Below are positions 1,035 through 2,809 of a DNA stretch of 64,000 bases, in pieces; the first letter of the stretch is position 1, and each line of letters begins with the position of its first letter. The stretch is from Christiangramia lutea. GTDB lineage: Bacteria; Bacteroidota; Bacteroidia; Flavobacteriales; Flavobacteriaceae. Below the pieces are notes generated by a model. That model was not told the origin of the DNA. It was given only the letters and a program-made list of their open reading frames with translations, and did not search any database. Location: the NCBI RefSeq assembly GCF_022489035.1, contig NZ_JAKVTV010000001.1:1116001-1180000 (forward strand), given 5' to 3'. Both the position numbers and the translations under genes were made by a program.

Positions 1035-1733
1035 ATGATCATAAAAACAGTTGATAACGTACAGGAAGCTGTTGATGGGGTTAAGGACGGAATGACGTTC
1101 ATGCTTGGTGGTTTCGGTTTATGCGGAATCCCGGAGAATGCGATTTCTGAACTTGTTCGTCTCAATGTAAAAAACCTTACCTGTATTTCTAATAATGCCG
1201 GGGTAGACGACTTTGGTTTAGGACAATTACTTCACAAAAAACAGATCGATAAAATGGTTTCTTCCTATGTGGGGGAAAATGCCATTTTTGAAAAACAAAT
1301 GCTTAGCGGTGAGCTTGAAGTAGAGCTTATTCCGCAGGGAACTCTAGCTGCCAGATGCCAGGCCGCTCAACAGGGTTTTCCTGCTATCTATACACCAGCT
1401 GGTTACGGTACTGAAGTTTCCCTTGGAAAAGAAACCCGTGATTTTGATGGAAAAATGTATGTACTTGAAAAAGCGTTTAAGGCCGATTTTGCCTTTGTTA
1501 AAGCCTGGAAAGGTGATAAGGCCGGTAACTTGATCTTTAAAGGAACTGCCAGGAATTTTAATCCGGTAATGTGCGGTTCTGCAAAAATCACTGTTGCTGA
1601 GGTTGAGGAACTCGTTGAACCTGGGGAATTAGATCCTAACCAGATCCATATTCCGGGAATCTTTGTACAGCGAATATTCCAGGGTAAGGATTACGAGAAA
1701 AGAATTGAGCAGAGAACGGTTCGTTCTAAATAA
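1035..1733 (+). CDS. scoA: 3-oxoacid CoA-transferase, subunit A
   Basis: Alpha subunit of a two-subunit family I CoA-transferase (succinyl-CoA:3-ketoacid or acetate/acetoacetate CoA-transferase), which moves CoA between a donor acyl-CoA and acetoacetate or a related acid. The length of 232 residues is normal. The N-terminal glycine-rich segment [13 protein letters not shown] and the GTLAAR and GYGTEVS stretches are typical. The subunit B gene lies downstream at 2153, but a 118-codon four-helix-bundle ORF now separates the two, which are normally adjacent. The substrate cannot be read from sequence; acetoacetate is the usual guess. Confidence 0.92.
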
Positions 1734-1735
1734 AC

Positions 1736-2145
1736 CAATTAATAAATGAATCAATTAATCAATGGAATCTAGAAAGAATATTGTTCTGGAGAAATCCATT
1801 GATTTTTCACTGGAGCTCATAAATTTCTGTGAAGCCCTGAAAAGTGAAAAGAAATATGTGATTGCAGACCAGCTTTTACGTTCAGGTACAATTATAGGTG
1901 CAAATGTTCATGAGGCTCAAAATTCAGAGAGTAAATTGGATTTTATCCATAAAATCAAAATAGCTTTAAAGGAACTTGAGGAAACTAAGTACTGGATGAC
2001 CCTTTGCGAGAAATCGAAAAGTTATCCTTTTGAAAATAGCTTAAAATTAAAGCTTGACGAACTAGGATTGATACTTTATAAAATTGTGAGTACCAGCAAA
2101 AATAACCTGAAGAAATAATTGATTCATTGCTTCATTATTAAATTG
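1736..2145. mobile_element. IVP-like cassette bounded by imperfect inverted repeats
   Basis: The four-helix-bundle ORF is framed by inverted repeats at 1736-1763 and 2118-2145. The inner 19 bases (AATGAATCAATTAATCAAT at 1745-1763) match the reverse complement of 2118-2136 at 17 of 19 positions; over 28 bases about 23 match. The ORF start codon lies in the left repeat and the last base of its stop codon begins the right one, so repeats plus ORF form one unit. In the mRNA the ends would pair and close the ORF into a loop, as in the intervening sequences of some bacterial 23S rRNAs that carry this protein family. I see no clear target duplication. That the unit is mobile is inference. Confidence 0.5.
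1762..2118 (+). CDS. Four-helix-bundle protein (23S rRNA intervening-sequence protein family)
   Basis: 118-residue all-helical protein with the hallmarks of the IVP / four-helix-bundle family also related to the Avd accessory protein of diversity-generating retroelements: the central LLRSGTIIGANVHEA segment (about residues 40-54), then DFIHKIKIALKELEETKYW. It is rich in Lys and Glu and has no signal peptide or membrane segment. It lies between scoA and scoB on the same strand, 28 bp after the first and 34 bp before the second, so it is probably co-transcribed. The family's function is not established; Avd binds nucleic acid and a reverse transcriptase, but no reverse transcriptase is seen here. 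Family call is confident, role unknown. Confidence 0.85.
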   Translation: MESRKNIVLEKSIDFSLELINFCEALKSEKKYVIADQLLRSGTIIGANVHEAQNSESKLDFIHKIKIALKELEETKYWMTLCEKSKSYPFENSLKLKLDELGLILYKIVSTSKNNLKK

Positions 2146-2152
2146 AAAAATT

Positions 2153-2809
2153 ATGCTAGATAAAAACGGAATAGCACAGCGAATAGCAAAAGAAGTTAAG
2201 GATGGGTATTATGTGAACCTGGGAATTGGAATACCTACCCTGGTGGCCAATTTTGTACGTGATGATATCGAGGTGGAATTTCAAAGTGAGAACGGTATCC
2301 TTGGAATGGGACCCTTTCCTTTTGAAGGAGAAGAAGATGCCGACCTTATTAATGCCGGGAAGCAAACCATTACAGCCTTACCGGGAGCTAGCTTCTTTGA
2401 CTCCGCTACCAGCTTTGGAATGATTAGAGGGCAGCATGTAGACCTAACTATATTAGGAGCCATGGAAGTTGCTGAAAACGGTGATATCGCCAACTGGAAA
2501 ATTCCTGGGAAGATGGTAAAAGGAATGGGTGGAGCGATGGATCTTGTGGCTTCGGCAGAGAATATTATTGTAGCTATGATGCATACCAATAAGGCTGGTG
2601 CCTCGAAACTTCTTAAGAAATGTTCCCTGCCTTTAACTGGGGTTGGCTGTGTTACAAAGATTGTTACCAACCTGGCGGTTATCGAGGTGACCGATGATGG
2701 TTTCAAACTACTTGAAAGGGCACCGGGAGTTAGTGTAGAGGAAATCGAAAAAGCTACAGAAGGAAAACTTATAGTAGAAGGTGATATTCCTGAAATGAAA
2801 TTAGGTTAA
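2153..2809 (+). CDS. scoB: 3-oxoacid CoA-transferase, subunit B
   Basis: Beta subunit of the CoA-transferase, 218 residues. It carries the SENG motif (in QSENGILGMGPFP, about residues 43-56) whose glutamate forms the covalent CoA-thioester in family I transferases, and the GGAMDLV stretch. It completes the enzyme started by the subunit A gene upstream. A strong hairpin terminator follows within 5 bp of the stop. The four-helix-bundle insert lies before its start and does not disturb the frame. Confidence 0.93.
   Translation: MLDKNGIAQRIAKEVKDGYYVNLGIGIPTLVANFVRDDIEVEFQSENGILGMGPFPFEGEEDADLINAGKQTITALPGASFFDSATSFGMIRGQHVDLTILGAMEVAENGDIANWKIPGKMVKGMGGAMDLVASAENIIVAMMHTNKAGASKLLKKCSLPLTGVGCVTKIVTNLAVIEVTDDGFKLLERAPGVSVEEIEKATEGKLIVEGDIPEMKLG

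Follow-up and report, generated by a model that had tools for sequence, protein, structure and literature searches.

Small units with inverted ends are well known as MITEs, REP-RAYT systems and insertion sequences, where arm-only tracts also occur, and heptanucleotide repeats (STRR) are familiar from cyanobacteria and others; the Avd protein of diversity-generating retroelements is kin to the four-helix-bundle S23p/IVP proteins considered here. The closest described system is the intervening sequence (IVS) of the Coxiella 23S rRNA, for which sections of PMC4990558 describe a 428-nt element with a 28-bp terminal stem and an S23p open reading frame (ORF), before whose start codon stand three GACAGAT heptamers that vary in copy number among strains. 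The same sections state that this IVS is excised by RNase III, that its S23p ORF is reported to be decaying and is probably not expressed, and that the S23p protein of Xanthomonas is a homopentamer. Passages of PMC4679880 report heptamer arrays in cyanobacteria, Beggiatoaceae and some Bacteroidetes, describe arrays of TAACTGA, and presume a horizontal spread for which “no mechanism is evident”, while the part of PMC4476775 on the 7-nt motifs of the trnL-intron P6b region describes paired repeat classes with evolutionary origins that are not known. Neither PMC4679880 nor PMC4692102 uses the terms “four helix”, “S23” or “intervening” in its main text, and the open-licence literature searched yielded no paper linking IVP genes with heptamer arrays in a general element outside rRNA.

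The window analyzed here, a stretch of 64,000 nucleotides from Christiangramia lutea, contains an IVP gene between the two genes for the subunits of 3-oxoacid CoA-transferase. On the forward strand, scoA (subunit A; 1035..1733; TIGR02429, E 3.2e-78) is the 5′ host gene and scoB (subunit B; 2153..2809; TIGR02428, E 1.7e-98) the 3′ host gene, and in the 419 bases that separate them lies an ORF of 118 aa (1762..2118, forward strand) that matches the IVP/S23p four-helix-bundle families PF05635 (E 1.6e-21) and TIGR02436 (E 7.3e-24). Its closest solved relative is PDB 2rld (E 1.4e-22), which was deposited as five chains. The left arm (1736..1763, forward strand) is an imperfect array of 8-nt units, AATTAATA AATGAATC AATTAATC AATG, which ends in the ATG of the IVP gene, and the right arm (2118..2145, reverse strand) is an imperfect inverted copy of the left array that begins at the last base of the stop codon. 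Inverted repeat arms were delimited at 1724-1757 and 2116-2149 (34 nt, 74% complementary, 358 nt apart), and a gapped alignment of 1736-1763 with 2118-2145 matches in 25/29 columns with a score of 34, which was reached by 0/1667 same-spacing placements in the window (maximum 26). The IVP-like gene between scoA and scoB, the imperfect inverted repeats with 17 of 19 inner bases matching, and their overlap with the ATG and the last base of the TAA had all been described in the first-pass annotation and hold up here; the array nature of the arms is a point absent from it. The IVP gene is the sole listed ORF of at least 60 aa within the unit, which therefore holds no transposase of its own such as would speak for an insertion sequence or MITE, and the family scans that gave PF05635 and TIGR02436 named no recombinase, ligase or nuclease domain; to our knowledge, none of these domains is known for IVP. 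Nothing in Rfam matched positions 1500-2400 of the window.

Compared with the Coxiella IVS, as the cited sections present it, the insert shares an S23p/IVP ORF, terminal inverted repeats, a patchy distribution and a size of around 430 nt, and both carry tandem repeats by the ORF, the GACAGAT of Coxiella corresponding to an 8-nt variant in the window copy and to 7-nt units in most of its kin. The window element lies in an operon spacer and the Coxiella IVS in rRNA, and purifying selection acts on the window ORF, which is intact, in contrast to the decay reported for that of Coxiella. It is called an IVS-type element, and not an rRNA IVS, because it is located between scoA and scoB. With the cyanobacterial heptamer repeats (STRR, TAACTGA and trnL), IVP arms share, as far as the cited passages describe these, 7-nt quasi-tandem arrays that are intergenic and patchy among lineages, and the trnL-intron heptamers are likewise arranged as a paired stem. 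Those passages describe heptamer repeats without a protein partner. The window copy has 8-nt units, and one further place in its genome matches its left arm. Unlike MITEs, REP-RAYT systems and insertion sequences, the IVP unit is without a transposase and has ends made of arrays that differ between elements.

The scoA-scoB insert is probably a copy of a minimal mobile element of IVS type, in which an IVP gene is framed by inverted 7- or 8-nt arrays. Arms and ORF recur together as a unit, which some relatives have and others lack at a given site. Across 24 genomes of the genus, that of the window included, scoA and scoB enclose an IVP gene in 10, are adjacent in 12 with few bases between them, and are separated in one (G016) by a 39-nt remnant resembling a right arm and in another (G021) by a run of N. 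This sporadic presence among relatives is also that of the 23S rRNA IVS, and with 12/24 genomes empty and 10/24 occupied, the insert is better regarded as a movable unit than as a fixed operon gene, which all relatives would share. In a scoAB tree of the 23 genomes other than the window's own, occupancy is patchy, and the sisters G010/G004 and G008/G006, both supported at 100/99, differ in it.

The same picture extends to other genera of the family, where scoB was found in 54/60 genomes. Among the matches listed, 29 scoAB loci from other genera comprise 6 with an IVP gene, 1 with a degraded one (G024, a weak partial match), 12 that are empty, defined as a spacer of up to 17 nt, and 10 with other sequence. 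The 16 scoAB IVPs form two well-supported subclades, each mixing the genus of the window with other genera, and the union of the two has a support of 44/0 only; judged from these sequences, repeated targeting of scoAB, allele exchange or old inheritance may each explain the two subclades. The scoA-scoB spacers of three other genera (L177, L180 and L190) hold a different short inverted repeat, of the ttcctgc...gcaggaat kind, and on this account the spacer seems to draw several kinds of repeat. Two further spacers (L183 and L189), of 347 and 360 nt, are nearly the size of the element and have no IVP match.

The arms were compared over 125 distinct IVP genes, a part of those present among the matches listed, from the 24 genomes of the genus and 60 genomes of the family, the latter contributing 60 further regions; with the plasmids described below, the sampling covers one family and a few plasmids. 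Start codons were assigned by rule, and some fall inside an arm (as in G012, with an inverted repeat score of 11). In these 125 IVP genes, self-matches at lag 7 occupy 46.7% of positions in the 45 bases 5′ of the ATG and 45.2% in the downstream flank, taken as reverse complement, as compared to around 31% after shuffling. The best of the periods 5-12 was called wherever at least one arm exceeded the 99% level obtained by shuffling. Among 137 elements (the 125 family IVPs and 12 plasmid loci), 91 have period 7, 25 have period 8, including the window element with its two imperfect 8-nt arrays, 4 have period 6 or 10, and 17 have none; both arms were significant as arrays in 65/137. The median arm is 33-34 nt long and stands around 9 nt away from the ORF, and its unit varies among elements (TCAGTGG, GTTTCAG, ACAATTG, GGTGAAC and others), but within an element the left arm mostly resembles the inverted right arm. 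An inverted repeat score of at least 24 is reached by 72/125 IVP genes, with 53/125 below it; among 390 control ORFs the share is 2.1%, and among 3000 cross-paired flanks 5.2%.

A stricter fixed threshold finds a 7- or 8-nt array in 83/143 elements, and in both arms of 28. The window as a whole yields zero period-7 or period-8 arrays at this threshold, so its own arms fall below it. The 143 IVP genes have 3652 period-7 arrays per Mb of flank beside them, while the background, taken at set positions over 80-100 kb per genome, ranges between 0 and 30 per Mb across 14 genomes; in G008, two of the three background arrays adjoin an IVP gene by their coordinates. The enrichment beside IVP genes is limited to periods 7 and 8 and exceeds 100-fold over the sampled regions. 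No clear difference was seen in the idea that arrays are denser in IVP-rich genomes, at 80-100 kb per genome. The idea that the period is set by protein lineage was likewise set aside: on the full tree of 134, the period was clustered (8 changes, with a shuffled mean of 23 and 0/500 as low), but with one element per site, the signal was weak (42 sites, 8 of them period-8; 6 changes, mean 7.5, 41-44/500 as low) and a pairwise comparison gave no separation, for which reasons it is not claimed.

Within the family, the IVP protein and the inner arms are constrained, and the unit lies in sense inside operons. Of 131 elements, 6 without a near neighbor were left out of the scoring; 122/125 of the rest lie in sense between two same-strand genes and 0 are antisense to both. 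By site, with sites defined by clustering on neighbor homology, 37/40 are purely of this kind, as compared to 368/708 ordinary genes and 78/180 genes of similar size (43-52%). The bias is weaker at the 12 plasmid loci, where annotation tables give 7 in sense to both neighbors, 4 antisense and 1 mixed. The dN/dS of IVP is 0.04-0.18 in the 17/31 same-site pairs with unsaturated dS, which come from six sets of elements, including two at scoAB. Columns of the inner arms at scoAB, picked by hand, are invariant in 29/41 cases for type a (six elements) and in 38/53 for type b (four elements), versus 11/98 and 25/100 third codon positions, respectively. At sites common to at least two elements, arm-to-arm similarity stays at 19-22 at all levels of IVP divergence, whereas the similarity of the same arm between same-site elements drops from 32 to 14, with 13 being random; therefore, either both arms evolve jointly or one element takes the place of another at the site. 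For scoAB type a alone, simple decay suffices.

A tblastn search with the window IVP against plasmids matched 25 records, 11 of which were from Nostoc; 12 plasmid loci entered the counts and five further loci were examined later. Heptad arrays flank IVP genes in cyanobacteria, in which the arms are 7-nt arrays, in a Bernardetia (Bacteroidota), in a Chloroflexota plasmid and in Treponema saccharophilum, and at one plasmid locus (L152), 39/39 arm bases are identical. The Treponema locus (L154, 2498-2854) has its heptad arrays on either side of the IVP gene in direct rather than inverted orientation. Among Nostoc plasmids, L288 is 87.6-87.8% identical to L287, L290 and L291 along 418 nt; the match begins 34 nt ahead of the start codon and extends to 12-18 nt past the stop codon, so that it ends in the arms, and no second match of at least 100 nt was found between them. 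L287, L290 and L291 represent one site in three plasmids, and the neighbors of L288 are different. At L287 (1300-2182), and at the same site in L290 and L291, the IVP unit stands within a cytosine-methyltransferase gene; L292 and L293 have this gene uninterrupted, with around 300 nt that are missing at the occupied site. At the L152 site, around 200 nt found in five related loci are missing. The target stretch absent from these two Nostoc plasmid sites was presumably lost at insertion. By eye, no target-site duplication was seen, the scoAB relatives being too diverged for a base-exact reading, and no copies above 87% DNA identity were found among the 125 family elements, the top pair being one between genomes. 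In two Nostocales plasmids (L151, 2024-4115, and L153, 2114-3870), an IVP unit with heptad arms separates cas2 from cas1 and runs antisense to them; in the relatives L294 and L295, these two genes are direct neighbors.

A mechanism can be proposed in which IVP, whose closest solved relative has five chains and whose Xanthomonas homologue is a reported homopentamer, would bind the array as DNA or as single strands and, together with host enzymes, would steer how the ends are joined and inserted at a break, where target DNA would be lost. Read-through from the host operon would then transcribe the element. Slippage and hairpin-templated repair could renew both arms together, and such joint renewal would allow the unit to change while the two arms go on matching.

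Several points go against a mobile element, namely the lack of a known recombinase, ligase or nuclease domain in IVP, the 17/137 elements without a significant array, the only 65/137 with both arms significant, the 53/125 with inverted repeat scores below 24, the direct arrays of the Treponema locus, the arrays that occur without IVP, and a top DNA pair of 87%. Purifying selection in place and the recurrence of sites across genera would also be expected of a gene that has long been resident and has a role in the host. Such a domesticated operon gene, with the scoAB mRNA or its products as the target of IVP and a regulatory hairpin formed by the arms, would account for the selection on IVP, the constrained arms, the sense placement of 122/125 elements in operons and the occupation of scoAB in several genera by two IVP subclades, but it is quite unlikely given that half of the genus (12/24 genomes) has no IVP at scoAB, that the same build is found at around 40 sites with unrelated neighbors, and that the arms have no excess of G-U mismatches. 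The first-pass annotation had raised the possibility of a special tie to the balance of the two CoA-transferase subunits, which has become improbable because cassettes of this build fill around 40 sites across the sampled genomes, and scoAB is without one in half of the genus. It had also allowed for a gene fixed in the operon, to be found in all relatives, but only 10/24 genomes of the genus are occupied. Its suggestion of a mobile, IVS-like unit seated in operons is supported by the empty sites at which scoA abuts scoB in 12/24 genomes, by the unit common to two unrelated Nostoc sites and by the sense placement.

The remaining part of that annotation, an RNA that folds with the ORF as its loop, stands as a fold and falters as a selected feature. 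The RNA of 1720-2160 folds at -91.7 kcal/mol (z -2.97, 0/100 shuffles as low), and RNAalifold pairs the arms at scoAB in a 12-bp stem for type a and in 12- and 7-bp stems for type b. This would suit a device in which the folded transcript is cut by RNase III, as reported for the Coxiella IVS in the available sections of PMC4990558, and the scoAB message is split. Maintenance of the arms for RNA pairing would predict more mismatches of the G-U than of the A-C type, yet the arms of 105 elements have 114 and 126, respectively (p 0.48), and compensatory pairs are few (2/12 in type a and 2/19 in type b). Selection on RNA pairing was thus rejected and the device is considered unlikely, although it and mobility may both be true at once. 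It is very improbable that the arrays are slippage repeats of the ordinary kind with no link to IVP, and that IVP genes simply pile up in repeat-rich spacers. Arrays without IVP do exist in the genus and in cyanobacterial plasmids, but beside IVP genes, it is only periods 7 and 8 that are enriched, by more than 100-fold, and the arms are more alike inverted in 112/143 elements and more alike direct in 27/143.

For the reading preferred here, that of a minimal mobile element, a wider form can be put forward tentatively, and with some doubt: IVP-array units may form a separate class of minimal mobile elements that has no known recombinase, with the S23p/IVP pentamer itself both recognizing 7- or 8-nt arrays and propagating them. 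If true, one and the same system would have left behind the 23S rRNA IVS as well as the dispersed heptamers of cyanobacteria, Bacteroidota and other groups, as its insertions and remnants. Three puzzles have so far been separate: where S23p-coding intervening sequences come from, what the scattered four-helix-bundle genes do, and from what source heptamer repeats arise. They are brought together by one anatomy, which is seen in four phyla (with direct orientation in one). The pairs of occupied and empty sites make mobility, the binding of arrays by IVP and RNA processing directly testable.

Arrays are also present away from IVP genes. The first-pass annotation had asked for further copies of the ends: a search of the window's own genome with a 20-mer of the left arm, allowing up to two mismatches, gave one further match (20/20), upstream of a methyltransferase-like gene, where neither a second arm nor an IVP gene was found. 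A similar tract precedes this gene, by eye, in 4/23 readable loci (G000, G003, G007 and G012), and none of its 24 loci in the genus has an IVP match. Several genomes of the genus have a palindromic repeat (...gagatttctcc...cgaaatgac...) upstream of the same gene (L298-L314). As to TAACTGA, long perfect arrays occur in the genus (G000:C1:117408-117533, G007:C1:549445 and 2309268, and G002:C12:87308), some of which adjoin other heptads. TAACTGA arrays as ends of IVP units were rejected as a candidate, with 0/30 listed loci matching IVP (many of these overlap, and 9/24 genomes have the pattern). The comparison of TAACTGA presence with IVP matches gave a p of 0.07, a loose value because G000 was counted by Pfam and the others by protein search. 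In cyanobacteria, an L152 query matches 37 places in one 69-kb plasmid and 10 in each of three others.
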